From Lachnospiraceae bacterium (GTDB lineage: Bacteria; Bacillota; Clostridia; Lachnospirales; Lachnospiraceae): 35,593 nucleotides of DNA. The notes below the pieces were generated by a model. That model worked only from the letters and a program-made list of their open reading frames with translations, did not search any database and was not told the origin of the DNA. The number at the start of each line of letters is the position of its first letter. The stretch's first letter is position 1. The stretch lies in NCBI GenBank assembly GCA_016290595.1, contig JAEEUR010000016.1, forward strand, positions 1 to 35,593, given 5' to 3'. A program made the position numbers and the translations under genes. Below are positions 2,958 to 22,317 of the stretch, in pieces.

Positions 2958-4361
2958 TCAGCCCAGCACCTCGTTTTTCTTATCCTGCAGCTCGGTGATC
3001 TGCTTTTTGCCCAGCGGGTACACGAAGCGCAGGATCAAAAAGACCAGCAGGAAAAGCACGGCGGGGATCATGACCGACGAATTGTACATGCTCTTTAATG
3101 CCTCGGCGCTTAGGCCTTCGGTCTTTAATTCGCTGCCGTTGTAGCCGATCTTAAGGAGCGGCACGTTGATCAGGATGGTCGCCACGGTCTGGCCGAGCTT
3201 GCGCATGAAGCTGTAGAAGGCGTAGCTGGTGGCCTCGTCGTTCAGGCCGTAGGTGACCTTGTTGTAGTCGATGGCGTCGGTCGCCATGGCCCAGATCAGC
3301 AGGAAGATGAAAGCTGTGCCGATGCCGCTCATCATGCAGGCGGCCAGATACAGCCAGACGTTCGTGACGCCGAAGAGGGCCAGCACGAAGAGGATCAGAT
3401 AGAAGGCGGCGGCGAGCAGGATGCCGTAGGAGCAGACCTCGCGGCGGCCGTATTTATTGCCCATCCGGCTGGCGATGAACATGATGACCGCGACCGGCAG
3501 GTACTGGAAAACGGTGGGCAGCATGGTCAGGCCCGGCTGGCCGAAGTAGTGATGGAACAGGTAGCTGTTGTAGCCCTGTCCGAACATCTGCGCGGCCAGG
3601 AAAAGCATGCTGGCCAGGCTCACGGCCATGAAGGGGCGGCTCTTTAAAAGAATCCTGATGACCCGCATGGTCTCGCCCTTCTGGCGCGGCGCGGGCTGCG
3701 ATTCGACCCGCTCCCTGCTCCATTTGTAGCAGAGCAGGTAGGCTAGGACGCTCAAAACGGCGATGACGATAGCTCCGATGAAGACCTTGCTCTGGCTCAT
3801 CTGCTTGCTGCCGTCGGCGAGCTTGACGTAGCAGATGCTGGCGAGCACCATGGCGGGCATGGCGCCGAAGGTAGAACCGATGGAGCGGAACACGGACAGG
3901 GCGGAGCGCTCTTTATCGTCCGAGGTGATGACCTGCGCGAGCGATCCGTAGGGGATGTTGATGCAGGTGTAGAGCATGCCGAAGAAGATGTAGGTCAGGT
4001 AGATCCAGGCCAGGCGGCCGCCGGCGGAAAAGCCGCGCACGTCCAGGAACATCAGGACGGCGGCGACGGCGACGGGGACCGCGAAGATGCGGATCCACGG
4101 CCGGTAGCGGCCGTCTTTCCTAGGCTTCGCGCCGTCGATGAGGCGGCCCCAGATGGGGTCGTTGATCGCGTCCCAGACGCGGGCAACGATGGTCATGATC
4201 ATGACGCTTAAGACGCTGATCTCCAGGACGTCGGTGTAATATTTGTTCAGGACGCTCTGGGTCAGGCCAAAGACCAGGCAGGATGCGAGATCGCCCATGG
4301 CGTAGCCGATCTTGTCCTTCATTTGGATGCCGCTGGTGCGGGCGATGTAGCTTTGCTCCAC
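2958..4361 (-). CDS. GPH-family (MelB/XylP-type) sugar:cation symporter
   Basis: 12-TM MFS-like protein; IGYAMGDLASCLVFGLTQSVLNKYYTDVL...ARVWDAINDPIWGRLID signature of GPH transporters; GTG start after RBS. Confidence 0.88.
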   Translation of the reverse strand: MEQSYIARTSGIQMKDKIGYAMGDLASCLVFGLTQSVLNKYYTDVLEISVLSVMIMTIVARVWDAINDPIWGRLIDGAKPRKDGRYRPWIRIFAVPVAVAAVLMFLDVRGFSAGGRLAWIYLTYIFFGMLYTCINIPYGSLAQVITSDDKERSALSVFRSIGSTFGAMPAMVLASICYVKLADGSKQMSQSKVFIGAIVIAVLSVLAYLLCYKWSRERVESQPAPRQKGETMRVIRILLKSRPFMAVSLASMLFLAAQMFGQGYNSYLFHHYFGQPGLTMLPTVFQYLPVAVIMFIASRMGNKYGRREVCSYGILLAAAFYLILFVLALFGVTNVWLYLAACMMSGIGTAFIFLLIWAMATDAIDYNKVTYGLNDEATSYAFYSFMRKLGQTVATILINVPLLKIGYNGSELKTEGLSAEALKSMYNSSVMIPAVLFLLVFLILRFVYPLGKKQITELQDKKNEVLG

Positions 4362-4365
4362 GTTG

Positions 4366-6363
4366 TTACCTCTCTGTATTTAATATATTTTTAACTTTGT
4401 CAAACACTTCTTTGAATCCGCTCTCCTTCCGGTAAAATACGGGGATCTGTCCGAGCGGGGCAGGCACGTTGAGGTCTACCGGGCCGTAGTGCTCCGCGCC
4501 GTCCCAGAGGCCGATCCATCTCCCCTCCGGTAAATGCACGCGGCGCGCGGTCTTCCCCTTCTCGATGACCGGGCAGACGAAGAGGTCGTCGCCCAGGAAA
4601 TAGGCGTAAGGATCGCGGCTCTCCGCAAACTTGCCGGCCTCCCAGAAGTCCGGACGCAGGGCGGGGATGCCCTCCTTCGCGTCAGCCAGCAGCTTCTGCA
4701 GGTAAGGCTTTAACTGCACGTGCGTCTTCGTCAGCTGCACGGTGTAGGGCAGGACGGCCTCGTCGTACGGCTGGGCATTGGCCCAGGGGCGGAGCGCCTC
4801 GTGGCTGCGCATAAGCGGCGAGAAGGCACACATCTCCATCCAGCGGGTGATCAGCTCCGGACCGCGCTTCAGCTTGCCGAAGGAGAAGAAACCGCCGATA
4901 TCGCAGTGCACGAGCGGGACGCCCGAGAAGCCCAGCGAGAAGCTGGCGGGCAGCACGCAGGGCATGCCGTAGTCCTTCGTCCAGTCGGTGTGCTGGTCGC
5001 CGTTCCAGAGGATCGGGGCCCAGCGCTCCACGCCCGGATAGCCGGAGCGCACGAAGAACATCTCGTCCCCGCGGCCGAATTCCTCCAGCGCTTCGCGGTT
5101 GATCCGCGCCCAGAGCACCGGCCAGACGTTGTGAAGCGCCGCCGGCTCGCCTTCGTGGATCACGCAGTCCGTGGGCAGGTATTCGCCGAAGTCGGCCATC
5201 CAGCCGGAGATGCCGAGCGCGAGCATGTTGTCGCGGATCAGGGTCTCTTTGATAAAGCGCACGACGGCCGGATCGGTCAGGTCCAGCATGCCGGCATCGA
5301 AGGTCGTGGATTTGATATGGTAGATGCTGCCGTCCTGGCGGCGGATGAGGTAGCCCTTCTCGGCGCATTCCTCGTACAGGCGGCCGCCCTTGACCAGGTA
5401 GGGGTTGATGTAGGCCAGGAAGCGGATGCCGCGCGCGTTCAGCTTCCGGATGGCTTCCGCAAGGCCGGGGTAGAGTTCCTTGCTCTCCTCCCAGTTCCAC
5501 CAGACCTGCTTGCCCATGACCGTGCGGTTCTCGCCGCACCAGTCCTGACACCAGACGGCGCTGATCTTCGCGCCGGCGTCCTGCAGGGCGAAGGCTTTCT
5601 CCAGCACGCGGTCGGTGCCGCCCTGCACGCCCAGGATCATGCCGTCCAGGCACCAGTCCGGCAGCCCCTGGCCGATGGGCCGTATCCGCGCCAGGCGCTT
5701 TGCCTGCTCGCGGAAGCTCCCCGCCTGCGAGAGGATCAGCCTGGCCGGGCAGGCGTCGAAGCTGAAACGGCTGCGTTCTTCCTCCAGGCGGCTGATGCCG
5801 TCCGACGGCGTCTCGAAATACAGCATCAGCCCGCTGTCCGTGACGAAGACGGGCATCGGCGCGTAGCTGCCGATCTGCGAGTGTTCTTTTTCCTTATACA
5901 GGAAGCGCGGCAGCAGGGTCTTTTCGAGGATCGTGGAGGCCTTGATGTGCTCCGAGACGAAATTGACCACGTGCTCGCCCTTTAAGTTGACCTTGCGGTA
6001 CTGCTCGCCGCCGCCGAAGACGCCCTCGCCGGGCACGGCGGGCAGATCGATCTCATAGCCCCAGCCGTCTTCGCCGGAAAAACTGGCGGCGATCATGCCG
6101 GGTTCCGGCTCGGAAAGGGTCAGGCCGAGCTGACGTCCGCCGCCTGACAGGAGCAGAACGTCTGCCGCATCTTCCGGCTGCCGGATCTCAGTCAGCGGGA
6201 TGCGTTCCTTTTCCACCACGGTCTCCTTGACCGTACCGCGGTTGGTCTCGTAGCTTTTTTCGCGGCGCACGGCCGTGGCGAAGGGCTGCTCCGGACTGTG
6301 AAGCGTCAGGGACCGGCCGCTCAGTTCTATGGTCCAGGTTCCGTTTTTGAGTTTGCTGTTCAT
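4366..6363 (-). CDS. GH31 glycosidase of the YihQ (sulfoquinovosidase-like) clade
   Basis: GGWMADFGEYLPTD-type nucleophile motif (SGWMADFGEYLPTD), LPDWCLDGMILGVQGGT, QDWCGENRTVMGKQVWWNW, WNGDQHTDW acid/base region; collinear with E. coli YihQ. The ORF track start is 6393; ATG at 6363 has a better RBS (ggagaaagcATG). Confidence 0.88.
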   Translation of the reverse strand: MNSKLKNGTWTIELSGRSLTLHSPEQPFATAVRREKSYETNRGTVKETVVEKERIPLTEIRQPEDAADVLLLSGGGRQLGLTLSEPEPGMIAASFSGEDGWGYEIDLPAVPGEGVFGGGEQYRKVNLKGEHVVNFVSEHIKASTILEKTLLPRFLYKEKEHSQIGSYAPMPVFVTDSGLMLYFETPSDGISRLEEERSRFSFDACPARLILSQAGSFREQAKRLARIRPIGQGLPDWCLDGMILGVQGGTDRVLEKAFALQDAGAKISAVWCQDWCGENRTVMGKQVWWNWEESKELYPGLAEAIRKLNARGIRFLAYINPYLVKGGRLYEECAEKGYLIRRQDGSIYHIKSTTFDAGMLDLTDPAVVRFIKETLIRDNMLALGISGWMADFGEYLPTDCVIHEGEPAALHNVWPVLWARINREALEEFGRGDEMFFVRSGYPGVERWAPILWNGDQHTDWTKDYGMPCVLPASFSLGFSGVPLVHCDIGGFFSFGKLKRGPELITRWMEMCAFSPLMRSHEALRPWANAQPYDEAVLPYTVQLTKTHVQLKPYLQKLLADAKEGIPALRPDFWEAGKFAESRDPYAYFLGDDLFVCPVIEKGKTARRVHLPEGRWIGLWDGAEHYGPVDLNVPAPLGQIPVFYRKESGFKEVFDKVKNILNTER

Positions 6364-6373: not shown

Positions 6374-7714
6374 TCAATATTCGTATACTTCAAAGCCGTA
6401 CATCTTCGCCAGGGCTTTCAGGGTCCCGGCGTGACGGCCCTTCATCACCACGTAGTGCGGCTCGAAGCCCGCCTCCACGCTCTCCTCCACCAGACGGCGG
6501 CAGTCCGCGTCCGTCCGGATCACGATCGACGTCCCGATGAACTGCTTCGGCTTATCCAGCGCTTCACCTTCGGCAATGAAGAAGCGGAAGCTTCCGTCCG
6601 GCTCGCGTCCGATGCGGAAAATCGTCGCCTCCGGGAAGGCCTCGCAGCCGAAATCCATAGCCGGGCCGATCTTCCGGTTCGGATGCACGCCCACCGACGC
6701 GCCGGTATCTTTCCGGGCCATCGAGCAGGGCGCCATGCCGCAGTGCCAGAAGGTCAGGGTGTTTTCCGTCTCATCCAGCGAGACCGGATCTCCGAAGAAG
6801 ACCGCTTCGCCCGAGAGCTGCCGGCCCATCCACATCGAAAGCGCGCCGTACAGATCCGCCTCGCAGGCGGCGGCGACGCCCTCGTCGTTGAGGAGCGAGA
6901 GCACCGTGCAGACCGGCGTGCCGAATTCGGTGAAGAAATCCGGCCAGCAGCGGCTGGCGAGCGCCCCGATCCCGCGCTCCCGCACGAAATCGCTGTAGGC
7001 CTTGTACAGTCTCGCATGGTCCAGCCGGTTTTTCTGCGGCGTGTTTTCCAGCCCGCAGGTAGCGCAGGCCGTTTTTTCCAGCCAGTCCGCGCACTCTTCG
7101 TCCGTAAAGCTCTTCGCCTTCCCGATCAGCTCGCGAGCCTCGATGCTCTCCAGCTCCGCACCGAAGACGTGCATCAGCTCCGCGTCCAGCGCGCGGCCGA
7201 AGCCGAAGCCCTGGGGCGTATGTCCGACGGCCGCGATCCGAAGCGACCGCACCGCCTTCTTCAGGGCGGCGGCGGCGGTGTTTTCGGCGATCGCCTGCCG
7301 CACGCTCTCCTCTTCCGGAGAACCGAAAACGTAGGCGAAGGGCCGGCCGCCGAAGTTCCGTAAGGTATGCGCCGCCGAATACGCGCCGGTCAGGGAATTT
7401 AAGCGCAGGCGGCCGCCGTCGATCACCGGCTCGCGCAGCGTCCAGAGCAGGACCGGCCCGTCATAGACGCGCAGCAGCTCGGACATATAGGCCGCGTTCG
7501 CAAAGGTCAGGTTCTGGAAAACCACCAGATCCGGCCGCAGCGGCTTCAGAAAATCCCGCAGCGCCTCCACGGAAAGCAGAGGCTCCGCCGGGACGGCAAA
7601 GCGTTCATCGACGCTCTTTACCAGTTTCACGGAACGCGCAAACTGATCGCGGGCGCTTTCCATGTGAAAAGTCCCGACGCCGACAGGCAGATAAACAGGG
7701 CAAAAAGTCTCCAT
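6374..7714 (-). CDS. L-fucose/L-arabinose isomerase-family sugar isomerase
   Basis: FucI-like organisation (DLVVFQNLTFANAAYM...; NTLTFWHCGMAPCSM...); start chosen at METFCPVYLPVGVGTFH (7714) with RBS gggaggtctt rather than 7741. Confidence 0.75.
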   Translation of the reverse strand: METFCPVYLPVGVGTFHMESARDQFARSVKLVKSVDERFAVPAEPLLSVEALRDFLKPLRPDLVVFQNLTFANAAYMSELLRVYDGPVLLWTLREPVIDGGRLRLNSLTGAYSAAHTLRNFGGRPFAYVFGSPEEESVRQAIAENTAAAALKKAVRSLRIAAVGHTPQGFGFGRALDAELMHVFGAELESIEARELIGKAKSFTDEECADWLEKTACATCGLENTPQKNRLDHARLYKAYSDFVRERGIGALASRCWPDFFTEFGTPVCTVLSLLNDEGVAAACEADLYGALSMWMGRQLSGEAVFFGDPVSLDETENTLTFWHCGMAPCSMARKDTGASVGVHPNRKIGPAMDFGCEAFPEATIFRIGREPDGSFRFFIAEGEALDKPKQFIGTSIVIRTDADCRRLVEESVEAGFEPHYVVMKGRHAGTLKALAKMYGFEVYEY

Positions 7715-7749
7715 AAGACCTCCCGAAACGATCGATTTCATTCCCGTTT

Positions 7750-7914: not shown

Positions 7915-8778
7915 TTGGAGCCGAATCTGAAAGACCGCGCGCTGGACGTCCGCTGCGATACGCTCCGCGCCATCGGTCACCTGGGCGTCGGGCACGTCGG
8001 CGGCTGCCTGTCCGTCGTGGAGCTGCTGACCGTTCTGTATTTTGAAGCCATGCATATCGATCCGGCGCAGCCGAAAATGCCGGGCCGCGACCGCTTTATC
8101 TGCTCGAAAGGGCACGCGGGGCCTGCCGTTTACGCAGCGCTGGCGAACCGCGGCTACTTCCCGAAAGAAATGCTGCTCACCCTGAACCAGGGCGGCACGG
8201 ACCTGCCCTCCCACTGCGACATGAACCGCACGCCGGGCATCGATATGACTACCGGCTCGCTGGGACAGGGCTTTTCCTGCGCCGTCGGCGCGGCGCTCGG
8301 CTCGAAGCTGGAGGCGGACGGCGCGGCCGTCTACGCCCTGATCGGCGACGGCGAGAGCCAGGAGGGCCAGATCTGGGAGGCCGCCATGTTCGCAGCCGCC
8401 AAAAAGCTGGACAATCTCATCGCCTTTACCGATTACAACAAGCTGCAGATCGACGGGTCCGTCGCGGAGGTGAACGATATCGCGCCGCTGGCCGCCAAAT
8501 GGCAGGCCTTCGGCTGGAACGTGATCGAAGCGGAGGACGGCAACGATCTGGAGCAGGTCCGGCTGGCCGTTCAGACTGCGCAAAAGCAGCGCGGTTCGGG
8601 CCGCCCGACCATGGTGATCCTGAACACGAAGAAGGGCTGCGGCGTGAAGTGGATCGAAGACATGGGCACCGGCAACCACAACTGCCCGCTCAGCGAGGCG
8701 CAGGCGGAGGAAGCCATCCGGGCGCTGCGGGAAGCGGCCGCTCAGGATAAGGCTGCCGCGTGCGGAAAGGAGGCATAG
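7915..8778 (+). CDS. Transketolase, N-terminal (TPP-binding) subunit
   Basis: GHVGGCLSVVELLTVLYF, RDRFICSKGHAGPAVYAALANRGYF, GSLGQGFSCAVGAALGSKL, GDGESQEGQIWEAAMFAAAKKLDNLIAFTDYNKLQIDG. Confidence 0.92.
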   Translation: MEPNLKDRALDVRCDTLRAIGHLGVGHVGGCLSVVELLTVLYFEAMHIDPAQPKMPGRDRFICSKGHAGPAVYAALANRGYFPKEMLLTLNQGGTDLPSHCDMNRTPGIDMTTGSLGQGFSCAVGAALGSKLEADGAAVYALIGDGESQEGQIWEAAMFAAAKKLDNLIAFTDYNKLQIDGSVAEVNDIAPLAAKWQAFGWNVIEAEDGNDLEQVRLAVQTAQKQRGSGRPTMVILNTKKGCGVKWIEDMGTGNHNCPLSEAQAEEAIRALREAAAQDKAAACGKEA

Positions 8779-8782
8779 GATC

Positions 8783-9703
8783 ATGGAAATGAGAGCCGTC
8801 TATGCGGAATGCCTCGCCGGGCTCATGGAAGCGGACCGGCACGTGGTGGTGCTGGACGCGGATCTGGCCAAGGCCAGCGGTACGCTTGCCCTGTACAAAC
8901 GTTTCCCGAAGCAGATGTTCGACTGCGGCGTGGCCGAGCAGAACATGGCCTCCATCGCGGCCGGGCTCGCGAGCTACGGCTTTACGCCCTGGATCGAAAG
9001 CTTCACCGCCTTTTCCTCCCGCCGCATCTGCGACCAGATCGCCATCTCCATCGCCTACGCGGGGATGAACGTGAAGATCGTCGGGTCGGACCCCGGCATC
9101 GCGGCCGAATTAAACGGGGGCACGCACATGAGCATGGAGGATATCGGCGTGCTGCGCTCCATCCCCGGCCTGGTGATCGTGGAACCGGTCGACGACGTGC
9201 AGCTGAGGGCCATGATGCCCGTGCTGCAGGCGTACCCGCACCCGGTCTATCTGCGCCTCTTCCGCAAGGAAACTCCGCGCGTTTTCGGAGAGGATTACCG
9301 CTTCGAGCTGTTCAAGGCGGACCTCTTAAGGCCCGGGAAGGATCTCACGATCTTTGTCAGCGGCTTTCTGACCGCCGACGCCCTGGCCGCCGCCGATGAG
9401 CTGGCCCGGGAAGGGGTCGAAGCTGAAGTCATCAATATCCACACCATCAAGCCGATCGACCGGGAGACGGTCATCGAGTCCGCCCGCAGGACCGGCCGCG
9501 TCCTGACCGTCGAGAACCACAACGTGATCGGCGGCCTTCACTCGGCGGTGCTGGAAGCCCTGGCCGGCGAACGCATCCCGGCGGCGGCCGTAGGCGTTCA
9601 GGACCGCTTCGGGGAGGTCGGCAAGCTGCCGTATTTAAAGGAAGCGCTGGGCCTGACGCAGGAGAACATCCTGCAGAAGGCGCGGATGCTGCTGGAAATG
9701 TAA
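8783..9703 (+). CDS. Transketolase, C-terminal subunit
   Basis: DCGVAEQNMASIAAGLASYGFTPWIESFTAF...RICDQI, VKIVGSDPGIAAELNGGTHMSMEDIGVLRSIPGLVI, INIHTIKPIDRETV. Confidence 0.9.
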   Translation: MEMRAVYAECLAGLMEADRHVVVLDADLAKASGTLALYKRFPKQMFDCGVAEQNMASIAAGLASYGFTPWIESFTAFSSRRICDQIAISIAYAGMNVKIVGSDPGIAAELNGGTHMSMEDIGVLRSIPGLVIVEPVDDVQLRAMMPVLQAYPHPVYLRLFRKETPRVFGEDYRFELFKADLLRPGKDLTIFVSGFLTADALAAADELAREGVEAEVINIHTIKPIDRETVIESARRTGRVLTVENHNVIGGLHSAVLEALAGERIPAAAVGVQDRFGEVGKLPYLKEALGLTQENILQKARMLLEM

Positions 9704-9727
9704 CGAATCAGCAACGCGCCGAGCGCG

Positions 9728-9821
9728 CCCGAACACAACTTTTGGGAGACCATTGAAGAGACCTGACTGCTCTTCTATTCCGGGAGGTCTCTGAACGGTC
9801 TCCAAAAAGTTCGTGTCGAGG
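9728..9821. repeat. Palindromic intergenic element, copy A (nested inverted repeats)
   Basis: Outer arms CCCGAACACAACTTTTGGGAGACC (9728-9751) / GGTCTCCAAAAAGTTCGTGTCGAGG (9797-9821); inner arms AGAGACCT (9757-9764) / AGGTCTCT (9785-9792); resembles copies B and C. Confidence 0.6.
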
Positions 9822-9885
9822 CAGCAAGGCGGTTATAATATCTTGAACCTCTCCCGCATCCGGGAGGAATTAGGAAGGAGAAAAC

Positions 9886-10359
9886 ATGAAACTTGCCATC
9901 GGAAGCGATAAATCCGGCTTCGCCGTCAAGGAAGCCGTCAAAGCTTGGCTCATCGAAGCCGGCTATGAATTCGACGATCTCGGCACCACGGATCTGAACG
10001 AAGTCCACCCCTACTATCAGGTGGCCTCCGAGACCGCGCCGCGCGTCGCCGCCGGCGAATACGATAAGGCCGTCCTGATCTGCGGGACCGGCGCCGGCAT
10101 GTGCGTCGTCTCGAACAAGTTCAAAGGCGTCTCCGCGGTCGCCTGCGAAAGCCTGTACGCCGCGAAGATGGCCCGCGCCATCAACAACGCGAACGTCCTT
10201 TGCATGGGCGGCTGGATCGTCGGGCCCGAGATGGCCGTCGAGATGGTCAAGACCTTCCTGAACACCGAATGGTGCCAGGATCTGGAGGACTGGCGCGCTG
10301 CCAACATGCACAAATTCGCCGCGCAGCTTCATGCCATCGAGGACAGGATCTATGGATAA
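9886..10359 (+). CDS. RpiB/LacA/LacB-family sugar isomerase (SqwI-like candidate)
   Basis: MKLAIGSDKSGFAVKEAVKAWL...LICGTGAGMCVVSNKFKGVSAVACESLYAAKMARAINNANVLCMGGWIVG; collinear with E. coli RpiB with active-site changes. Confidence 0.85.
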   Translation: MKLAIGSDKSGFAVKEAVKAWLIEAGYEFDDLGTTDLNEVHPYYQVASETAPRVAAGEYDKAVLICGTGAGMCVVSNKFKGVSAVACESLYAAKMARAINNANVLCMGGWIVGPEMAVEMVKTFLNTEWCQDLEDWRAANMHKFAAQLHAIEDRIYG

Positions 10360-11446
10360 CTTTGTTTACGCGCAGCCGGTCCGGATCCGCTTCGGCGAAG
10401 GCTGCCTTCTGGCGCTGCCGGAGGTCCTGAAGGAGTTCGGGATCGAACGCTGCGTGCTGGTCTGCGGCCGTCACTTTGCCGCCCGGGCCGAAGTGCTGCA
10501 GCAGGAGATCCCCGCCATCCGTGCCGTATTTTCGGAAGTCGAACCCAATCCGCAGCTTTCCGGCGCGGCTGAGACCGCCCGCCTGGCGCGGGAATGCAAG
10601 GCGCAGGCCGTCGTCGGCATCGGCGGCGGCAGCGCGCTGGATACCGCCAAGTTCGCGGCTGCCATCGCTCCGGGCAGCGCAGATCCGGAGGCGTACTATC
10701 ACGGCGAAGTCCCCTTCCCGTCCGATCCGCTCGCCGTCATTTGCGTCCCCACCACGTCCGGCACAGGCAGCGAGGTCACGCAGGTCTCCGTCATCAGCCA
10801 CGGAGCGGAAAAGCGGACCATCAACCACCCGGCCTTCATGCCGAAGGCGGCCCTCGTGGATCCGGCTCTTACCTATTCCGTCTCTCCGTACACCACCATG
10901 ATCACCGGCCTGGACGCCCTCTGCCACGCCGTCGAAGGCTACTGGAGCAGATATCACCAGCCGATCCCGGAACTGTACGCCGCCGAGGCGGTGCGCCTGA
11001 TCCTGGATAATCTGGAAACGGCTTATCGCGACGGCAGCAACAAAGAAGCCCGTGCCGCGCTCTCCTACGCCTCGCTCCTGGGCGGCCTGTCCTTTGCGCA
11101 GACCAAGACCGCGGCCTGCCACGCCTGCAGCTACCCCTTAAGCGAGCTTTACCACCTGCCGCACGGCGAAGCCTGCGCCTTCACCTTTGACAGCCTCGTG
11201 CGCCTGAATGCGGACGAAAGGCTGGAAGCGCTCTGCCGCCGGGCGGGGCTTTCCGGCAGCGAAGAGCTGGCGGAGCGCATCGCCGCCTTCAAAAAGACGG
11301 CCGGCCTGAAAACGCGCCTCTCCGAGCTCGGCGAAGTCGATACCGCCGCCCTGGCCGCCGCCTGCGCCGCGCATCCGCTCATGAACAACAATCCCGTCCC
11401 GCTGGATGCGGCCGCGTTAAAGGCCATGTTCGAGGCGCTGCGCTGA
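10352..11446 (+). CDS. Iron-containing (type III) alcohol dehydrogenase / aldehyde reductase
   Basis: GIGGGSALDTAKF, VPTTSGTGSEVTQVSV, DALCHAVEGYWS, HACSYPLSELYHLPHGEACA. ATG at 10352 overlaps the preceding stop (ATGGATAA), preferred over the 10331 ORF start. Confidence 0.9.
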   Translation: MDNFVYAQPVRIRFGEGCLLALPEVLKEFGIERCVLVCGRHFAARAEVLQQEIPAIRAVFSEVEPNPQLSGAAETARLARECKAQAVVGIGGGSALDTAKFAAAIAPGSADPEAYYHGEVPFPSDPLAVICVPTTSGTGSEVTQVSVISHGAEKRTINHPAFMPKAALVDPALTYSVSPYTTMITGLDALCHAVEGYWSRYHQPIPELYAAEAVRLILDNLETAYRDGSNKEARAALSYASLLGGLSFAQTKTAACHACSYPLSELYHLPHGEACAFTFDSLVRLNADERLEALCRRAGLSGSEELAERIAAFKKTAGLKTRLSELGEVDTAALAAACAAHPLMNNNPVPLDAAALKAMFEALR

Positions 11447-11515
11447 GCGCTCTCCGGAAGTTTCCTGCCGGGCTGGAACGCAAAATGTGAATTTTCACTT
11501 TCCCGTGAAAAGTTC

Positions 11516-11544
11516 TTGCGCTTTCCGGAAGAAAGCCTTATAAT
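11516..11544 (+). promoter_or_regulatory. Promoter of the foldase lipoprotein gene
   Basis: TTGCGC (11516-11521), 17-bp spacer, TATAAT (11539-11544). Confidence 0.6.
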
Positions 11545-11578
11545 AGAGCGGCTAACGATTTTTCGGAGGTTCTTTACT

Positions 11579-12580
11579 ATGAAGCGTTACAGCAAGATCC
11601 TTGCACTGTTCTTAGCCCTGATGCTGCTGATGAGCGGCTGCGGCAGCAACCCGGACTCCTACGCGGAGAAAGTGGCGGCCACCTACGGCGATCAGACCGT
11701 TTACCTGGACGAGGCCAACTTCTGGCTGCGCTACGAGCAGATGGGCTACAGCTACATCGCATATATTTACCAGTATTATTACCGCGTCTCCAACATCTGG
11801 TCTCTGGAAAGCGGCCGCCGGACGCAGACCTATGAGGAATCGGCCAAGGAAGATACCATGGCCGCCTTCTTGCAGATGTTCATCCTGCTGGACCATGCCG
11901 ACGAATACAAGATCACGCTGACCGACGACGATTACGCCAAGATCGATGCCATCATCGCCGAGCTGCGGACCGACTACGCCGACTCCCTCTTTGCCGAGAG
12001 CGCCATCGGCAGCTATCCGGATGCGAAGCTGCGGGAATCCATCGCCCAGCGGACGAAGGCCGTCAAGGTCTGGAACGCGGTGCGTGAGCAAGCCACGGTG
12101 AACGTCAGCGATGAGGACGCCAAGAGCTTCTCCGTCCACTATTTCCAGATCACCTCTTCCGCCAAGATCACGCCTGAAGGCGGCAGCGAGCTGACCGGTG
12201 AAGCGATCGCCGAATATCTGACCAACGAGCTGGTCAACGGCACGAGCTTCGAGACCTTAAAGTCCACCTTCTCCACTCTCACGGCCGGCGACGTCTCCTA
12301 CCGCTGGAACGATGAGGACACCATGAACCGTCCGCAGAACCGTCTGGGCCGCGTGCTGACCGACGGCCGCGTGACCTGGCAGAAGGACGGCGACAGCTGG
12401 TACGTCGTGCAGTGCATCTCCGCCGATGACAAAGACGCCGCCGCCGAAGCCAGAGCGACGCTGGAAAGCCGGCAGAAGGAAGCCCACTTCAACGAAGTGT
12501 ACGCCGAATGGGCCAAGTCCGCGAAGAAATTCTCCGTCAAGAAGGCCTTCAACGATCTGCCGATCATCATCTCCGAGTAA
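11579..12580 (+). CDS. SurA/PrsA-like extracytoplasmic foldase lipoprotein
   Basis: Lipobox LMSGCGS after signal sequence; SurA_N-like helical region and PPIase-like C-terminal region; start at 11579 with RBS, not 11516. Confidence 0.7.
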   Translation: MKRYSKILALFLALMLLMSGCGSNPDSYAEKVAATYGDQTVYLDEANFWLRYEQMGYSYIAYIYQYYYRVSNIWSLESGRRTQTYEESAKEDTMAAFLQMFILLDHADEYKITLTDDDYAKIDAIIAELRTDYADSLFAESAIGSYPDAKLRESIAQRTKAVKVWNAVREQATVNVSDEDAKSFSVHYFQITSSAKITPEGGSELTGEAIAEYLTNELVNGTSFETLKSTFSTLTAGDVSYRWNDEDTMNRPQNRLGRVLTDGRVTWQKDGDSWYVVQCISADDKDAAAEARATLESRQKEAHFNEVYAEWAKSAKKFSVKKAFNDLPIIISE

Positions 12581-12590
12581 GGGTCTTCCG

Positions 12591-12646
12591 GCAGACAAAA
12601 AGAGAGCGCCGCAGCTTTTGGGCTGCGGCGCTCTCTTTTTGTCTGC
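12591..12646. terminator. Bidirectional intrinsic terminator
   Basis: GCAGACAAAAAGAGAGCGCCGCAGC (12591-12615)-TTTTGG-GCTGCGGCGCTCTCTTTTTGTCTGC (12622-12646), 25-bp perfect stem between convergent genes. Confidence 0.92.
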
Positions 12647-12653
12647 TCCGGCT

Positions 12654-14447
12654 TCAGACCGGCGCGGTGATCTCCTTCAGCCAGGCAGCTTCCTCCGCCG
12701 TCAGGCCGCTCCGCAAGCGCTCGTAAACCATCGCGTGATACGCGTTCAGCGCGGCTTTTTCGTCCGGAGCCAGCAGCTCCGTCATCACCGGCGTCAAGTC
12801 GATGGGGCAGAGCGTCAGGTTTTCGAAGCGGTAGAACTGGCCGTATTCGTTGACCTCGTCCGCCACGCAAAGCAGCTCGTTCTCGATGCGGATGCCGTAC
12901 TCGCCCTCCGTATAGATGCCCGGCTCGTCCGTGGTGACCATGCCCGGCTCCAGCTCCACCAGTCCCTCCGGCACGGCCGGCTTGGCCCAGCGGAAGCCGT
13001 TCGGTCCTTCGTGCACGTTCAGGCAGAAGCCGACGCCGTGGCCCGTGCCGCAGCGGTAGTCGATGCCCAGATCCCAGACCGGCCCGCGGGCCAGGATATC
13101 CAGGAAATAGCAGGTCGAACCCTTCAGGAACTTTGCCGCGCCCAGGCGCAGGAAGCTGCGCAGCACCGCGGTATAGTGGCGTTTTTCCTTTTCCGTAAGC
13201 GGTCCCATCGCGACGGTCCGCGTGATATCCGTGGTGCCGTCGTAATACTGGCCGCCGGAATCCACCAGCAGGAAGCCCTGCTTTTTGATCATCGAATAAT
13301 TCGAAGGCGTGGCGGAATAGTGCATCATGGCGGCGTTCGGGCCCATAGCCGCGATGGTGCCGAAGGACAGCTCAAAGGCGCCCTGCTCCCGGCGGCACTT
13401 TTCCAGATAGTCGCTGACGTCGATCTCGCTTAAGGACTCCGGATCCGGGTGATGCATCAGCCAGTACAGCCACTTGACCATGGCCACGCCGTCCTTGCGG
13501 TGCGACTCGCGCAGGGCATCCTGTTCCACCGGATTCTTGACGCATTTCATGAGCGTGGTCGGGTTGATCTTTTGGATCTTCTCCGCGTCCGCGGGCAGCG
13601 AAGCCGCCAGCAGATACGCGGTCTTTGCCGGATCGAACAGGACCTTCGCCTTTTCGCCCGCGTCGGCCGCCGCCGTCCAGATCTCCTCGTATTCCTTTAA
13701 TTCGACGCCCTGCTCCGCCAGCGCTTTCCTGACGTCCTCGCCGAAACGTTCGCGGCGGCAGTAGAGCACGGCGTCCTCTTCGCTCAACTTCACGAAGCCG
13801 AAAACGACCGGGTTGTTGGGAACGTCGTCGGCGCGCAGGTTGAGGAGCCAGGCGATGTCATCCAGAGAGGAGATAAAGTGCAATGCGGCGCCGGCTTCCT
13901 TCATTTTTTCCCGGACCGCCGCGATCTTTTCGGCCGCCGTCCGGCCCGTATATTTAACGTCCAGCAGGAAGGGCTTAGAGAAGCTCTGCGCCGGCCGGTC
14001 GGTCCAGACGGCGCCGAGAAGATCCCGGCCCGCCTTAAAGGAAACCGCCTTGCCTTCCAGCGCTTTTTTCCAGTCCTCCGCCAGCTTCACGGTGGTCATG
14101 CGGCCGTCGAAGCCCAGGACCTCGCCGTCCTTCAGTTCCTGCTTCAGGAATTCCGGAACGGTGGGCACGCCAGCCTGCGCCATGCGCATCAGCTCGAATT
14201 CGCTGCCGGACAGCTCCCGTTCGGCCTGAATGAAATAGCGGCCGTCCGTCCAGAGCAGGGCTTTTTCCTTCCCCACCAGGACCGTGCCGGCCGAGCCGGT
14301 AAAGCCGCTGATAAAACGCATCGTGCGGAAATAATCGCTTAAATACTCCGAACCGTGGCAGTCGCCCGAAGGAACGATATACCAGTCGATCCCGTCTTTT
14401 GCCATCTCGGCCCGCAGGGCCGCCAGTCTTTCGTTGATCGTCGTCAT
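12654..14447 (-). CDS. Xaa-Pro aminopeptidase (M24B)
   Basis: YIVPSGDCHGSEYLSDYFRTMRFISGFTGSAGTVLV...LLVDSGGQYYDGTTDITRT...GTGHGVGFCLNVHEGPNGF...EPGMVTTDEPGIY. ATG at 14447 preceded by aaggagc; the ORF track uses TTG at 14465. Confidence 0.93.
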   Translation of the reverse strand: MTTINERLAALRAEMAKDGIDWYIVPSGDCHGSEYLSDYFRTMRFISGFTGSAGTVLVGKEKALLWTDGRYFIQAERELSGSEFELMRMAQAGVPTVPEFLKQELKDGEVLGFDGRMTTVKLAEDWKKALEGKAVSFKAGRDLLGAVWTDRPAQSFSKPFLLDVKYTGRTAAEKIAAVREKMKEAGAALHFISSLDDIAWLLNLRADDVPNNPVVFGFVKLSEEDAVLYCRRERFGEDVRKALAEQGVELKEYEEIWTAAADAGEKAKVLFDPAKTAYLLAASLPADAEKIQKINPTTLMKCVKNPVEQDALRESHRKDGVAMVKWLYWLMHHPDPESLSEIDVSDYLEKCRREQGAFELSFGTIAAMGPNAAMMHYSATPSNYSMIKKQGFLLVDSGGQYYDGTTDITRTVAMGPLTEKEKRHYTAVLRSFLRLGAAKFLKGSTCYFLDILARGPVWDLGIDYRCGTGHGVGFCLNVHEGPNGFRWAKPAVPEGLVELEPGMVTTDEPGIYTEGEYGIRIENELLCVADEVNEYGQFYRFENLTLCPIDLTPVMTELLAPDEKAALNAYHAMVYERLRSGLTAEEAAWLKEITAPV

Positions 14448-14493
14448 CTCAGTGCTCCTTGACAAGCTGTGTTTTTACAATAAACGCCTCGCG

Positions 14494-14550
14494 CCCGGGA
14501 CGAAAACTTTCTCGGACCCGGTTCCAAGGGTCCTCGAAAGTATTGTCCGG
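14494..14550. repeat. Palindromic intergenic element, copy B
   Basis: CCCGGGACGAAAACTTTCTCGGACCC (14494-14519) / GGGTCCTCGAAAGTATTGTCCGG (14528-14550); shares AAAACTTT-YTCGGAC...GTCCTC-RAAAGTATTGTCCGGCTCGC with copy C. Confidence 0.7.
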
Positions 14551-14566
14551 CTCGCTCGGCGCCGTG

Positions 14567-14956
14567 TCACTCCCTGATATGCTCCATCCCCTGGCTTAAG
14601 ATCGACACGATGTGGTCGTCCGCCAGCGAATAAAAGATCGTTTTGCCGTCCCGTCTGGCCTTCACCAGATCCATCTGCTTTAAGATCCGCAGCTGGTGCG
14701 AGATCGCCGGCTGCGTCATGCCTAAAAGCTGCGCGATATCGCAGACGCAGGTCTCCGAGCAGAGCAGCACGTAAAGGATCCGGATGCGGGTGGAATCCGC
14801 GAAGACCTTGAAAAAGTCCGCCAGCGAATACAGTTCCTCTTCATCCGGGATCGATTCCAGCACCTTCCGCACCAGTTCCGGGTGGACGTGCTTTGCGCCG
14901 CAGAGTTCTAAGGGCTCTGCGGCGCGTCTTGCCGTTTTTTCTTCAAATCCGCTCAT
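14567..14956 (-). CDS. ArsR/SmtB-family metal-responsive repressor (CadC/CzrA-like)
   Basis: FADSTRIRILYVLLCSETCVCDIAQLLGMTQPAISHQLRILKQMDLVKARRDGKTIFYSLADDHIVSILSQGMEHIRE; CVC in helix alpha-3 and an SmtB-type D-x-H-x10-H-x2-E alpha-5 motif. Confidence 0.9.
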   Translation of the reverse strand: MSGFEEKTARRAAEPLELCGAKHVHPELVRKVLESIPDEEELYSLADFFKVFADSTRIRILYVLLCSETCVCDIAQLLGMTQPAISHQLRILKQMDLVKARRDGKTIFYSLADDHIVSILSQGMEHIRE

Positions 14957-16053
14957 GACAGGATCGGAATATGGTCCGGATCACCCACCATGCGGGTCCC
15001 GTTTGCGATCCGGGTCTTCTTGTCCACGATACAGTTCTCCAGCACCACGTCGTCGCCCACGTAGACGTCGTCCATCAGGATGCAGTTTTTCACGTTGCTG
15101 CGGTCGCCCACATAAACTTTCTTGAACAGGACGGAATCCGCAACGGTCCCGTTGACGATGCCGCCGCCGGCCACCAGCGAATTCGAAACGCGGGCCGAGC
15201 CGTTGAACTTGGCGGGCGGGTTGTCGTCCACCTTGGTGTGGATGACCGGATGCTCGCTGAAGAAGAAACTGCGCAGCTTCGGATCCAGGAAATCCTTATT
15301 GCAGTCAAAATAGGCCTTCACCGACGCGATATTCGTCCAGTAAGTCTCCAGCATGTACGCCATGATCTTGCGCTCCGCCAGATGCGGGATGATCATCTCC
15401 GTGACCAGATGGCACTTGTCCTCGCGGGCAGCCTCCTCCAGCAGCTGGATCAGGTGCCGGCGGCGGATCACGTAGATGCCGCAGTTGATGATCTGCTCGT
15501 TGGGGGAGGAATGTTCATCCTTCTCCGCCCAGGAAACGATGCGGCCGTCGCCGTCCAGCTGCAGCACGCCGAAGCGTTCGCTCTCGGCCTTCGGCATCCG
15601 CTTGCAGACGATGGTCATCTCCGCGCCGGTGGCGGCGTGGCGTTCCAGCACCTCGTTGTAGTCCAGCTTGTAGACGCCGTCGCCGGAAGCGATGATCACG
15701 TAGGGCTCGTGACGCTCCTTGATAAAGTCCAGGTTCTGGATCAGGGCGTCCGCCGTGCCGCGGTACCAGTGCGTGTTTTCCGGCGTGATGGTCGGATTTA
15801 AGAGGTACAGGCCGCCCTGTTTGCGGCCGAAATCCCACCACTTGGAGGAGCTTAAGTGAATATTCAGCGAGCGGGAGCTGTACTGCGTGACCACCGCCAC
15901 GGTCCCGACGCCCGAATTGCTCATGTTGCTCAGGGAAAAGTCAATGCTGCGGTAGGTGCCCGCCAGCGGCATGGCCGCCACGGCCCGTTTCGCGGTCAGG
16001 CTCTCCAGACGGCTGGAGCCGCCCCCTGCCAAAATGATACCGACTGCCTTCAT
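14953..16053 (-). CDS. glgD: Glucose-1-phosphate adenylyltransferase, GlgD subunit
   Basis: [49 protein letters not shown]; diverged GlgC-like protein, next to glgC. Confidence 0.92.
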
Positions 16054-17321
16054 GCCCGGCCTCCCTTCTTGATGATGTAATCACCGGATTCCAGCACACC
16101 GTTCGGATAGTCTTCCGGCACGGTCTTGCCCATGATCGCCACGTTCTTGCCGATGCTTACGTTCTCCGGGATGACGCTGTTCGCGCCGACCACCGTAATA
16201 TCGTTGTTGTATACGCGCGGATCCAGCCGGGAAGCAGCGAAGAAGCCCTCTCCGATATGGGTGCCGGCGCCGATCACCGTGTTTTCGGCAATGATCGCCT
16301 TGCGGATCACCGCGCCTTCCCCGATCACCACGCCGTTCATGATGACCGAATCCCGGATCTTCGCGCCCGGTGCGATCTTAACGTTCGCGCCCAGCACGGA
16401 ATGCTTGACCGACCCCTCAATGCTGCTGCCGTCGCCGACGATGGACGATTCGGCTTTGCCGCCTTCGGCGATATAGGCCGGCGGATACGCTTCCGCGGAG
16501 GTGTAGATCTGCCAGAATTCCTCATAGAGGTTGAACTCCGGCACCAGATCCGTCAGCTCCATATTGGCTTCCCAGTAGGTGCCCAGCGTCCCGACGTCCT
16601 TCCAGTAGCTGTTGAACTGGTAGGAATAGAGCTTGCCGCCCCGTCTGTGGATGTGCGGGATCACGTGCATGCCGAAGTCGCAGTTCGGTACGTTGGAAAG
16701 CTCCTGCAGTTCATTTTTCAGGGTCTTGAAGTTGAAGATATAGATGCCCATGGAGGCCAGATTGCTGCGCGGATTCTTCGGCTTTTCCTCAAAATCCGTG
16801 ATGCGTCCTTCCGCATCCGTGATCATGATGCCGTAGCGGGACGCCTCGTCCCACGGGACGGGCATGACGGCGATGGTCGCTTCCGCGCCGGCGCTGACGT
16901 GCCGCGAGAGCATGTCTTCATAATCCATCTTGTAGATATGGTCGCCGGAAAGGATCAGCACGTAGTCGGGATTGTACTGCTCCATAAATTCCAGGTTCTG
17001 ATAGATGGCGTTGGCCGTTCCGGTATACCACTCGCTGTCGCCGGTCTTTTCATAGGGCGGCAGGATGGTCACGCCGCCGAACTGCTTGTCCAGATCCCAC
17101 GGGATCCCGATCCCGATATGGGAGTTCAGCTGCAGGGGACGGTACTGGGTCAGAACGCCTACGGTATCTACGCCGGAGTTGACGCAGTTGCTTAAGGGGA
17201 AATCGATGATCCGGTATTTCCCGCCGAAAGCCACGGCCGGTTTTGCCATTCCCTGGGTCAGCGCGCCGAGACGGCTTCCCTGTCCGCCGGCCAGCAGCAT
17301 GGCAATCATCTGCTTTTTCAC
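16050..17321 (-). CDS. glgC: Glucose-1-phosphate adenylyltransferase
   Basis: (V)[68 protein letters not shown] start at 17321 with RBS aggaggg, not the 17414 ORF start. Confidence 0.95.
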
Positions 17322-17354
17322 GGTATTCCCTCCTGTGAATGATTGTTTGGCTTC

Positions 17355-17372
17355 AGTATAGCACAGATGTGC
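17355..17372 (-). promoter_or_regulatory. glgC -10 with adjacent palindromic operator candidate
   Basis: Minus strand TATACT (17360-17355) directly preceded by GCACA-TC-TGTGC palindrome (17361-17372). Confidence 0.45.
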
Positions 17373-17373
17373 A

Positions 17374-17400
17374 TAAAAAAAAAGCCCCGTAAGAGGCTTT
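17374..17400 (-). terminator. Intrinsic terminator of the MATE gene
   Basis: Minus strand AAAGCC-loop-GGCTTT followed by a T run. Confidence 0.7.
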
Positions 17401-17417
17401 GTACTGTTCCGCATGCG

Positions 17418-18806
17418 TTATGCCGCCGTTTTTTCGGCCGGAGCGTTCTCCGCCTCCCGCCACATCCTCTTCCGGATCAGCAGCATATAGATCAGCAGGA
17501 ACAGCATGGCGAAGCTCCAGCCGAAGGGAAAGCTGGCGTTGATGACGCAGATCTCGCCGGGCCAGCGGGCCGTCGCCAGCGCAAGAAACAGCTGCCGCAT
17601 CGCGACCATGGCCGCCAGGGTCAGGATCATGGGCATGCGGCTCTTCCCGTAACCCCTTAAGTAGCCGAGCAGGACCTCGCGGACCACCATGACGCTGTAG
17701 AAGGGCAGCAGGAAATGCACCATACTGACGGCCGCGTCTATCACTTCCTGTTCTTCGCTGAAAAGACCGGCTACCGGCTCGGCAAAGAAAGCCAGCGAGA
17801 TGGCCAGCACGGCGGTCACGGCCGCGCATAAGGCCAGGCCGTACCAGATGCCCTGCCGGGCGCGTTTATACTGCGCGCCGCCGAGGTTCTGGCTGACGTA
17901 GGTGGTCGTGGTCATGGTGATGGCCTTGCAGGGCAGGATCACGAAGCGGTCGATCTTGACCGCCGTGCCGATCCCGGCGCTGACGGCTGTCGGAAAGGCG
18001 TTGATATAGTTCCAGACAAAGATGTTGGAGAAGGAGATCAGCGCGTTCTGCACACCGGCGGAAAAGCCGACGCTGACCGACGCGGCGATCTGCCGGCGGC
18101 CGTCCGTCCAGGTCTCCTTCAGCGCCACCGCGTGCGTCTGGATCTGACGGCGGATCATCTGATGCACCAGAAGGACCGAGATGCCCTGCGCGATGATCGT
18201 CGCGATGCCGACGCCGGCCGTTCCCCAGCCGAGGGAGGCTACGAAGAGCAGATCCAGCGCGATATTGAGCACGCTGGTCAGGGCCAGCACGTAAAGCGGG
18301 CTGCGGGAATCGCCTACGGCGCGCAGGATCCCGGTCCCGCAGTTGTAGATCACGGTAAACATCAGGCCGGCCAGGTAGATGCGCAGATAGACGATGGCTT
18401 CCGCGTAGATCTCTTCGTTGCAGCCGGTCAGGGACAGCAGCACCGGGGCCAGCAGGATCCCGATCGCCGAGACCACGACGCCGAGCACGATGGAAAAGGT
18501 AAACGCATAGCGGACCGCCTTCTTCGTCTGCTCTTCGTCTCCGCTGCCGAAGGCCTTCGCGACCATGACCGTATTCCCGATCGACATGCCGTTGAAAAAC
18601 CCGATCAGCAGGTTGGTGATGGGGCCGCAGACGCTGACGGCCGCCAGCGCCGCGCTGCCGACGTTTCTTCCCACCACCAGGGCGTCCACGCTGGTATATA
18701 AGCTCTGCAGCAGCTCGCTCAGAATGATCGGTACCGCAAACAGGAGCAGCTTCGGTACGATCGCTCCTTCGGTGAAATTGATGTTTTTCTGAACAGGCGC
18801 CTTCAT
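17418..18806 (-). CDS. MATE-family efflux transporter
   Basis: NFTEGAIVPKLLLFAVPIILSELLQSLYTSVDALVVGRNVGSAALAAVSVCGPI; 12 hydrophobic segments. Confidence 0.92.
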   Translation of the reverse strand: MKAPVQKNINFTEGAIVPKLLLFAVPIILSELLQSLYTSVDALVVGRNVGSAALAAVSVCGPITNLLIGFFNGMSIGNTVMVAKAFGSGDEEQTKKAVRYAFTFSIVLGVVVSAIGILLAPVLLSLTGCNEEIYAEAIVYLRIYLAGLMFTVIYNCGTGILRAVGDSRSPLYVLALTSVLNIALDLLFVASLGWGTAGVGIATIIAQGISVLLVHQMIRRQIQTHAVALKETWTDGRRQIAASVSVGFSAGVQNALISFSNIFVWNYINAFPTAVSAGIGTAVKIDRFVILPCKAITMTTTTYVSQNLGGAQYKRARQGIWYGLALCAAVTAVLAISLAFFAEPVAGLFSEEQEVIDAAVSMVHFLLPFYSVMVVREVLLGYLRGYGKSRMPMILTLAAMVAMRQLFLALATARWPGEICVINASFPFGWSFAMLFLLIYMLLIRKRMWREAENAPAEKTAA

Positions 18807-20072: not shown

Positions 20073-21425
20073 TTACTGCAGCTTCTCCATCAGCGCGCGG
20101 ACCTTGCCGTTTCCTTCCAGCACCAGCTTTCCGATCTCTTCCGCTTCCTCTTCCGTCTTGCCGCCGTAGCAGGCCAGATCCAGGAATTTCGTCTTGAAAT
20201 CGTCCAGCGTCATGGGGATCTCGGGCTCGCCCTTGGCGAAGTCCACCTGCTTTAAGCAGTGCGTGCCGTCCTTAAAGATGATCTCCACGTTGGCCGCCCG
20301 CTTCTTCGGGACCCAGGAGGTCATTTCCGGATCCGCGATGACGTCAGTCTTTTCCGTTAAGGCCAGGATCAGCGGATCGTGGATGTTCTCCTCGGTAAAG
20401 TCGCGCATGCCGGCGGAGCCCTTCACCAGCGCCAGGCCGACGCAGAAAGGCGTGCTCATCTTGCCGGACACCGTGGTCGGGATCTCCTTGAATTCATGGC
20501 CCTTGACGCCCTGCCCGTACATGCGGACGATGATCCGCTCGATCTCGTTCAGATCCATCGGATATTCCTTCCGGAGGCCCAGGGCGCCGTCGATCGCCGC
20601 GTGGGTATGGCGGCAGGCCGCATAGGGTTTGTGGTACGCGCCGAGGATGTTGAAGTTCGGATCGTTCGCCAGATCCAGGCCGGAAGCGTCGTATTTCTCT
20701 GCCATGGTGGACAGCCAGCCGAACTGCTCCTCGAAGCTGTTCTCCGGGCCGACGAAGCCGGCTCTGGCGATCAGCGCCGCCGTGATGCCGTCGTGGCCGG
20801 CGCGGCCGATGTTGTAGGGCTTCAGGGTGGAGGAGCCGAGCATCATACGGTTGTTGCCGGCGGCCGAGGAGGTCGCCGCGCTCAAAGCCGCCTTCATCTC
20901 TTCCCGGCTGAAGCGCATGGCGGTGGCTACCGCCATCGCGGCGCCCAGCGTTCCGATGGTCCCGGAGGAATGGAAGCCGCGGTTCCGGTGCGACGGCTGC
21001 AGGCAGCGGCCCAGACGGATGCCCGTCTCATAGCCGATGATAACGCCCCGCAGAAGATCCTCCATACCGAGATCAAAGTGCTCGCAGACCGTCAGAACGG
21101 CCGGAACGACCGTGGAGCCCAGATGAACGGTGCTGAAGCGGTGACCGTCATCGATATCAAACACGTGGGCGCACATCCCGTTGACCAGCACCGCGTTCTG
21201 CAGGGAGGCCCGGCGGCCGAAGCCAACGACCGTGGAGCCTTCGCGCTCGGACATCAGGTCCAGATAGCGGTTCAGGCGGTCCTTCAGCCAGCTGGTCCCG
21301 CCGATCATGGAGCCTAAAAGGTCCAGCACGCATTTGCGGGCTTCGTAATAGACCTCCGCCGGGATGGGGCCGTTTGCCATTTCGTAAAGGGTATTTACGA
21401 AAACATCCGTCACATTCGTCGTCAT
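20073..21425 (-). CDS. MmgE/PrpD family protein (2-methylcitrate dehydratase / aconitate decarboxylase fold)
   Basis: RKCVLDLLGSMIGG...NGMCAHVFDIDDGHRFSTVHLGSTVVPAVL...KPYAACRHTHAAIDGAL. Confidence 0.9.
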   Translation of the reverse strand: MTTNVTDVFVNTLYEMANGPIPAEVYYEARKCVLDLLGSMIGGTSWLKDRLNRYLDLMSEREGSTVVGFGRRASLQNAVLVNGMCAHVFDIDDGHRFSTVHLGSTVVPAVLTVCEHFDLGMEDLLRGVIIGYETGIRLGRCLQPSHRNRGFHSSGTIGTLGAAMAVATAMRFSREEMKAALSAATSSAAGNNRMMLGSSTLKPYNIGRAGHDGITAALIARAGFVGPENSFEEQFGWLSTMAEKYDASGLDLANDPNFNILGAYHKPYAACRHTHAAIDGALGLRKEYPMDLNEIERIIVRMYGQGVKGHEFKEIPTTVSGKMSTPFCVGLALVKGSAGMRDFTEENIHDPLILALTEKTDVIADPEMTSWVPKKRAANVEIIFKDGTHCLKQVDFAKGEPEIPMTLDDFKTKFLDLACYGGKTEEEAEEIGKLVLEGNGKVRALMEKLQ

Positions 21426-21445
21426 AAGCTTACTCCGTTGCGTGT

Positions 21446-22303
21446 TTACAGTTCCACGGAGGCGTGTCTCGGCTCAAAGCAGCAGCCGGGACGGATCGCC
21501 ACGACGCGCACGCCGCTGGCGCGCTGCGGGCCGACCTTCATGAAGGTGGCCAGCACCGTCGTCTTGCCCTTTAAGCCCAGGGGGCCGACGCCGCTTTCAT
21601 TGACCTTTTCCGTGATATATTTTTCCATCTCGTTCTGCTTGCTGAAATCGCCGTAGACCATGGCTTCCATCATCATGGAAGTGGCCTCGAACTGAGAACG
21701 GCCGACGCCGACCGCCAGCGCGCAGGGCGTGCAGCCCAGCAGCCTGGTGCCGTCCTTGGCACGGGCTACGATCTCATCCAGCACCACCTGCAGGTTGTGT
21801 TTGTGGAAAATGCGGTGGGTGATGCCGCGGATGGCGGGACCGCCGCCCAGCATCAGGATATGCACGCGCAGAACGTCTTCTTCGACTTCCTTTACCAGGA
21901 ACGGCGCCAGCGCCAGGTCCTCGGAATTCGGGCTGATGCCGCCGGACATGTCGATGCGGCCCGCATCGTCGCCCATGATCGCCATGGGACGGCCGGGCAG
22001 ATCGATCAGGCCCTGACGCACGCCGTCCTGGATCGCCGTCATCATGGCGCCGGTGAGGCAGCGGTTCGGACCTACTTCGACAAAGACGTGAGGAATGCCG
22101 GTATCGTCACACAGCGGGCTTCTGTCATGCTCCGCGACCTCGGCGTTGTCCAGAATGGTCTCCAGGTTCCATTTCGCGCGCTCGAGTTCCTCGTTCGCGA
22201 TGGCGCACTTGTAGGCGTTTTTCTTGTCCTGGCGGAAGGTCGAGCCGGCCCGTACCAGACAGTCGGCTACCTTTGCAACGACTTCATTGTAATTGAATTC
22301 CAT
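21446..22303 (-). CDS. Class I fumarase / L-tartrate dehydratase / mesaconase type hydratase, alpha subunit
   Basis: PLCDDTGIPHVFVEVG, GGGPAIRGITHRIFHKH, LLGCTPCALAVGVGRSQFEAT, ESGVGPLGLKGKTTVLATFMKV. Confidence 0.9.
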   Translation of the reverse strand: MEFNYNEVVAKVADCLVRAGSTFRQDKKNAYKCAIANEELERAKWNLETILDNAEVAEHDRSPLCDDTGIPHVFVEVGPNRCLTGAMMTAIQDGVRQGLIDLPGRPMAIMGDDAGRIDMSGGISPNSEDLALAPFLVKEVEEDVLRVHILMLGGGPAIRGITHRIFHKHNLQVVLDEIVARAKDGTRLLGCTPCALAVGVGRSQFEATSMMMEAMVYGDFSKQNEMEKYITEKVNESGVGPLGLKGKTTVLATFMKVGPQRASGVRVVAIRPGCCFEPRHASVEL

Positions 22304-22317
22304 CTCGTCTTCCTCCG

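Follow-up and report, generated by a model that had tools for sequence, protein, structure and literature searches.

The window, by which we mean the whole stretch of 35,593 nucleotides of Lachnospiraceae bacterium DNA that was analysed, contains a YihQ-like glycosidase gene of family GH31, whose product we call P0001, among genes resembling those of the sulfo-transketolase (sulfo-TK) route of sulfoquinovose (SQ) degradation. The isomerase, GH31 and symporter genes follow one another on the minus strand and are divergent from the transketolase halves, the RpiB-type isomerase and the iron-type alcohol dehydrogenase:

2958..4361, minus strand: GPH-type symporter, 4 bases downstream of the GH31 gene, 85-90% identical in genus relatives
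4366..6363, minus strand: GH31 glycosidase P0001, YihQ-like, Gln301/Phe508 type (665-aa open reading frame; structure and profile matches, alignment)
6374..7741, minus strand: SqvD/SftI-like sulfoquinovose isomerase, 10 bases upstream of the GH31 gene
7915..8778, plus strand: N-terminal half of a transketolase (SqwG-like)
8783..9703, plus strand: C-terminal half of a transketolase (SqwH-like), with the motif GSDPGIAAELNGGTHMSMED
9886..10359, plus strand: RpiB-type isomerase (SqwI-like)
10331..11446, plus strand: iron-type alcohol dehydrogenase (SqwF-like candidate sulfoacetaldehyde reductase)

The GH31 reading frame opens with the ATG at 6363, a TTG at 6393 being also possible. The same gene set is kept in genus relatives where the contig shows it, with the stretch of L043 being without the iron-type dehydrogenase. 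In 8 genomes of the window genus, orthologues of both the isomerase and the GH31 enzyme are present, and in 8 neither is (Fisher P = 1.6e-4), a count that leaves out a 29% paralogue in G012.

Three features of sulfo-TK loci were found: an SqvD-type isomerase, an SqwI-type isomerase and a split transketolase. The only profile matched by the window SqvD-like protein was NF048012, at 378 bits with a cut-off of 700; this shortfall speaks against the assignment, but the isomerase of a complete sulfo-transaldolase (sulfo-TAL) locus has a similar score, 387, in the same SqvD model; window-genus SqvD keeps 129 of the 138 columns that are invariant in 18 other loci and carries one fixed change. In comparison with three other sulfo-TK loci, the SqwI-like protein has the MGGWI and TE[WF]xQ[DN]LE[DE]WR motifs of the Arg-type loci (those with arginine at YihQ position 301) and differs from E. 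coli RpiB. The transketolase motif GSDPGxxAExNGGTHMSMED, in place of which ordinary transketolases have GSHCG / THAG, is common to the window, one Arg-type locus and one Gln-type locus. These shared features of the SqvD, RpiB-type and transketolase proteins, each compared across few loci, argue that the window locus handles sulfonated intermediates. The iron-type dehydrogenase reaches 161 bits against the SarD model (cut-off 700) and is 34-37% identical to the dehydrogenases of two other sulfo-TK loci. The known sulfo-TK pathway (Clostridium sp. MSTE9, reviewed in PMC9594981; rumen species, PMC13219744) likewise has SqvD, split SqwGH, SqwI, an iron-type alcohol dehydrogenase and a YihQ-like GH31 enzyme in one locus; the window locus differs in having a GPH symporter, a GH31 enzyme of the Gln/Phe type and no DUF4867 gene. 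The lack of DUF4867 and of a TauE-type exporter in the window locus counts against the reading preferred below, though four TauE-family proteins are encoded in the genome.

P0001 matches solved YihQ-type structures end to end, with E-values over four of them ranging from 1.9e-120 (8r56) to 4e-111; E. coli YihQ (5aed) gives 1.4e-119, and 6pnr and AtSQase (5ohy) are also full-length matches. Against the NCBIfam profile NF007746 'PRK10426' of the YihQ group it scores 583 bits (cut-off 553). Full-length homology, the catalytic aspartate pair (D391 and D456 in the alignment) and a sulfoglycolysis gene context, all of them traits of GH31 sulfoquinovosidases (SQases) of the YihQ group, are thus present, and no second close YihQ relative was found in the same genome. 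The sulfonate site differs. In YihQ, Arg301, Trp304 and Tyr508 reportedly bind the sulfonate of SQ, and positions 368 and 369 presumably align with a loop of GH31 enzymes that lies towards C6 in subsite -1. MAFFT alignment with YihQ placed the corresponding residues of P0001 as follows:

5506..5508, minus strand: Gln286, codon CAG (YihQ Arg301)
5497..5499, minus strand: Trp289 (YihQ Trp304, kept)
5302..5307, minus strand: Thr353-Thr354 (YihQ Gly368-Glu369), the change that accompanies Arg301 to Gln
4885..4890, minus strand: Phe492 (YihQ Tyr508; codon 4888-4890) and Phe493 (YihQ Thr509)
5191..5193, minus strand: Asp391, catalytic nucleophile (YihQ Asp405)
4996..4998, minus strand: Asp456, acid/base (YihQ Asp472)

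The alignment agrees with a preliminary description of this DNA in which glutamine, encoded at 5506-5508, had been placed at Arg301 and Trp304 had been read as kept. Phenylalanine at Tyr508 had also been recognised correctly, but the codon given for it, 4891-4893, is that of Gly491. Of the spacings reported there, 36 residues from the acid/base to the phenylalanine is right for both P0001 and YihQ, whereas the 104 residues from the nucleophile must be corrected to 101 in P0001 and 103 in YihQ. Because the triad at 301/304/508 reads Gln-Trp-Phe instead of Arg-Trp-Tyr, we keep P0001 apart from the canonical GH31 SQases, as a relative with probably the same function. Gln262 and Gln288 of YihQ are retained as Gln247 and Gln273, and the pocket presumably belongs to neither the QQRWY nor the KERWY class of GH31 SQases. 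Overall, P0001 shares with E. coli YihQ, AtSQase, 8r56 and 6pnr the fold family, the catalytic pair, the Trp304, Gln262 and Gln288 positions and the sulfoglycolysis context, yet only about one third of its residues are identical, its N-terminal loop is different and it departs from them by Arg301 to Gln, Glu369 to Thr, Gly368 to Thr and Tyr508 to Phe.

The Gln and Phe pair was present in 8 of 8 genus members with the GH31 gene; the seven orthologues from other members (L003-L009), 64-80% identical to P0001, all have it, and the pair is therefore neither chance nor a sequencing slip. Further changes are fixed in the window genus, among them Y508F (Phe492), F298M (Met283), T509F (Phe493) and D481Y (Tyr465), the last three being found in this genus only among the sequences compared. 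Together, these genus-only residues and the loss of Tyr508 may alter aglycone or sugar specificity. A single-sequence structure prediction of P0001 reached a pLDDT of 33, too low for locating any residue relative to the sulfonate.

Replacement of Arg301 extends well beyond the window genus. A survey of 397 genomes sampled from the family contained YihQ-like GH31 enzymes in 27 genomes; outside the window genus, 15 of the 25 YihQ-bearing genomes encode an enzyme with Gln301 and Tyr508 kept and 13 encode the Arg type, with both types in 3. Further examples of both the Arg and the Gln form came from samples at the level of class and phylum, among them a tandem Gln/Phe pair (L058/L063) from another family. 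The Gln-type relatives within the family (L011-L017, L019-L025, L035 and L060) share the glutamine and a TTF motif (TVF in one) with P0001, as well as clan membership and sulfoglycolysis loci, but are only about 35-42% identical to it, retain Tyr508, Thr509 and Phe298, and mostly lie in sulfo-TAL rather than sulfo-TK loci. In the GH31 tree, computed after deletion of the trait columns, a branch with support of 100/99 has the main Gln group on one side together with the window-genus clade, whose own branch is long (1.35 changes per site). The earlier label 'YihQ-clade' calls for caution, P0001 belonging to a separate Gln clan. The long branch and the fixed changes beyond Gln301 may mean that specificity has shifted in the window genus.

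Residue 301 changed at least three times in the GH31 tree, or twice in the outgroup tree, whose outgroup branches are very long, if only starred branches count; the direction was likely from arginine to glutamine, judging by the trees. Residue 508 changed three times in the GH31 tree, with Tyr508 to Phe having arisen also in L058/L063 and in L068. The change at 301 is accompanied by one at YihQ position 369, which is acidic (Glu/Asp) in 24 of 25 Arg301 sequences and in none of the 27 Gln301 sequences (Thr in 25, Val in 1, Ala in 1), while Gly368 is replaced by Thr in 27/27 of the latter. The pair 301/369 changed together about three times, and the joint replacement reads as a charge-compensated swap.

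Most Gln-type genes are housed in sulfo-TAL loci comprising isomerase, transaldolase, reductase and DUF4867 genes; L044, for example, combines its Gln-type GH31 gene with a GPH symporter, a TAL_FSA transaldolase, a reductase of the sulfolactaldehyde reductase family, DUF4867, TauE, an SftI-type isomerase and a ROK regulator. Within the stretches fetched, transaldolase or transketolase genes accompany 13/16 Gln-type and 8/13 Arg-type loci (Fisher P = 0.41). A single Gln clade was rejected by the AU test for both the transaldolases (p-AU 3.1e-44) and the isomerases (p-AU 1.3e-5), and the Gln-type locus L053 nests with the Arg-type loci L083 and L084 in both trees. This intermixing indicates that relatives of one sulfofructose-handling enzyme set occur with either GH31 type. 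On locus content and the two trees, Gln301 was also rejected as a mark of a lost role in SQ metabolism. The transporters do differ: a GPH symporter is present in 11/16 Gln-type loci versus 0/13 Arg-type loci (P = 1.3e-4), and ABC permeases occur in seven Arg-type loci. Two genomes count against the reading of P0001 preferred below. In the Gln-type genome G114, neither an isomerase of >30% identity nor a transaldolase was found, and in G539 a Gln/Phe pair lies apart from the SqvD-like isomerase and the transaldolase, which adjoin an Arg-type GH31 gene. The ABC set beside the G539 pair is homologous to the ABC sets of Arg-type loci.

The preliminary description had offered a choice between a sulfonate pocket of an unrecognised kind and a YihQ relative acting on a different 6-modified glycoside. 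The former is favoured because Arg301 to Gln is widespread within sulfo-TAL and sulfo-TK loci, because the downstream enzymes are not sorted according to the type of their GH31 partner, and because the SqvD, SqwI-like and SqwH-like proteins of the window keep the features of Arg-type loci. Loss of Arg301 in otherwise ordinary sulfosugar-degradation clusters points to a probably undescribed mode of sulfonate binding and not to a change of sugar. On these grounds, we consider it probable that P0001 is an alpha-sulfoquinovosidase feeding the sulfo-TK pathway through a charge-compensated sulfonate pocket that dispenses with Arg301. In the proposed scheme, the GPH symporter would import a sulfoquinovoside, from which P0001, acting inside the cell with retention, would free SQ; the SqvD-like isomerase would convert SQ to sulfofructose, and the split transketolase, the RpiB-type isomerase and the iron-type dehydrogenase would pass sulfofructose down the sulfo-TK route towards isethionate. 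The arginine at 301 and the acidic residue at 369 would have been lost together, to glutamine and threonine with a further threonine at 368, the net charge of the pocket being kept, and the sulfonate would be held by hydrogen bonds from Trp, Gln and Thr. Such a site would resemble that of the sulfate-binding protein, which holds sulfate with neutral donors.

The most serious alternative is that another basic residue, such as Lys148 of the N-terminal loop or His458 near the acid/base, grips the sulfonate, so that the pocket would be rearranged and not neutral. As the enzyme would still be an SQase, this disputes only the neutral-pocket step, its probability overlaps with that of the SQase assignment, and we regard it as a real but less than even prospect. 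Both residues are invariant in 17 window-genus and Gln-type sequences, histidine occupies YihQ position 474 in 24/27 Gln301 sequences and in no Arg301 sequence, and the N-terminal loop is unlike between the GH31 types (SEPG versus SEHI / AEHQ). However, the separately arisen Gln301 sequences L058, L063 and L065 have retained the classical loop and carry Leu instead of His at 474, so neither Lys148 nor His458 is needed in every case, and the position of Lys148 relative to YihQ varies between alignments. Lys148 as the substitute for Arg301 in all cases was rejected on the same sequences, which lack the changed loop.

That the window-genus enzyme has been re-specialised, while remaining in a sulfo-TK locus, to SQ carrying some other aglycone, to a sulfosugar other than SQ or to a 6-modified glucoside without a sulfonate seems unlikely. 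The long branch, the second loss at Tyr508, the genus-only F298M, T509F and D481Y and the distinct association of Gln types with the GPH transporter speak for it, but the adjacent isomerase, nearly unchanged at its invariant columns, co-occurs perfectly with the GH31 gene, the transketolase and RpiB-type proteins retain Arg-type-locus motifs, and Tyr508 to Phe also arose elsewhere. Equally doubtful is an enzyme whose fully neutral pocket, without Arg301 and the Tyr508 hydroxyl, would recognise a sulfoquinovoside or other sulfosugar glycoside, re-specialised away from sulfoquinovosyl glycerol and supplied by a dedicated GPH symporter. Finally, although two canonical sulfonate residues are missing, it is very improbable that the GH31 gene is hitchhiking or decaying, with the organism using free SQ or another SQase, given that its catalytic residues are intact, that it is strongly conserved across eight species, lies only 10 and 4 bases from its operon neighbours and co-occurs 8/8 with SqvD, and that the 2 of the genome's 3 Gfo/Idh proteins compared with solved structures best matched inositol dehydrogenases and DgpA, with GH188 absent among the matches listed.

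The preferred reading, an SQase without Arg301, bears on annotation, Arg301 being one of the signature residues used to recognise GH31 sulfoquinovosidases. Should a large Clostridia-type group release SQ without it, residue-based annotation would miss or mislabel its members, and the co-variation of 301 and 369 would offer a direct two-residue test of how sulfoquinovosides are discriminated from glucosides. It likewise bears on surveys of rumen and gut in which yihQ serves to mark SQ degraders; if the Gln-type enzymes are not SQases, counts based on yihQ would be too high, which matters equally. Divergent YihQ clades and two-copy genomes have been described from the cow rumen, in an account whose accessible portion makes no mention of pocket residues beside these clades (PMC13219744). 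YihQ relatives are treated as one orthologous group of SQases in the accessible parts of the literature surveyed, which lay outside the primary YihQ structure and GH31 subfamily papers and in which we found no comment on residue 301. Clades with a changed sulfonate residue are known from GH188 (PMC11465081); as in GH31 here, a clade of SqgA enzymes that has a gene context of its own differs at one sulfonate-binding position, but GH188 is an unrelated NAD-dependent family in which this position makes its contact through a backbone amide and models show the site intact.

Several further arrangements were observed. L055 of G114 (8579-12706) combines a Gln-type GH31 gene with a gene whose 218-aa product has no known family and with one for a GPH symporter that shares 64% identity with its window counterpart. 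In L087 of G539 (9162-17553), tandem Gln/Phe-type GH31 genes flank a solute-binding protein and two ABC permeases. On G625:C59 and G1081:C86, a YihQ-like GH31 gene adjoins an isomerase only 28% identical to SqvD, and close to the pair in G1081 there is a transaldolase with 60% identity to that of sulfo-TAL. Elsewhere in the window, named from their translations, lie citrate-lyase-type genes (CitF, CitE, CitC-, CitG- and CitX-like) with MmgE/PrpD, class I fumarase halves and an Ldh2-type dehydrogenase (20073-32601), followed by two neighbouring paralogous MATE-type transporters (32611-35445).
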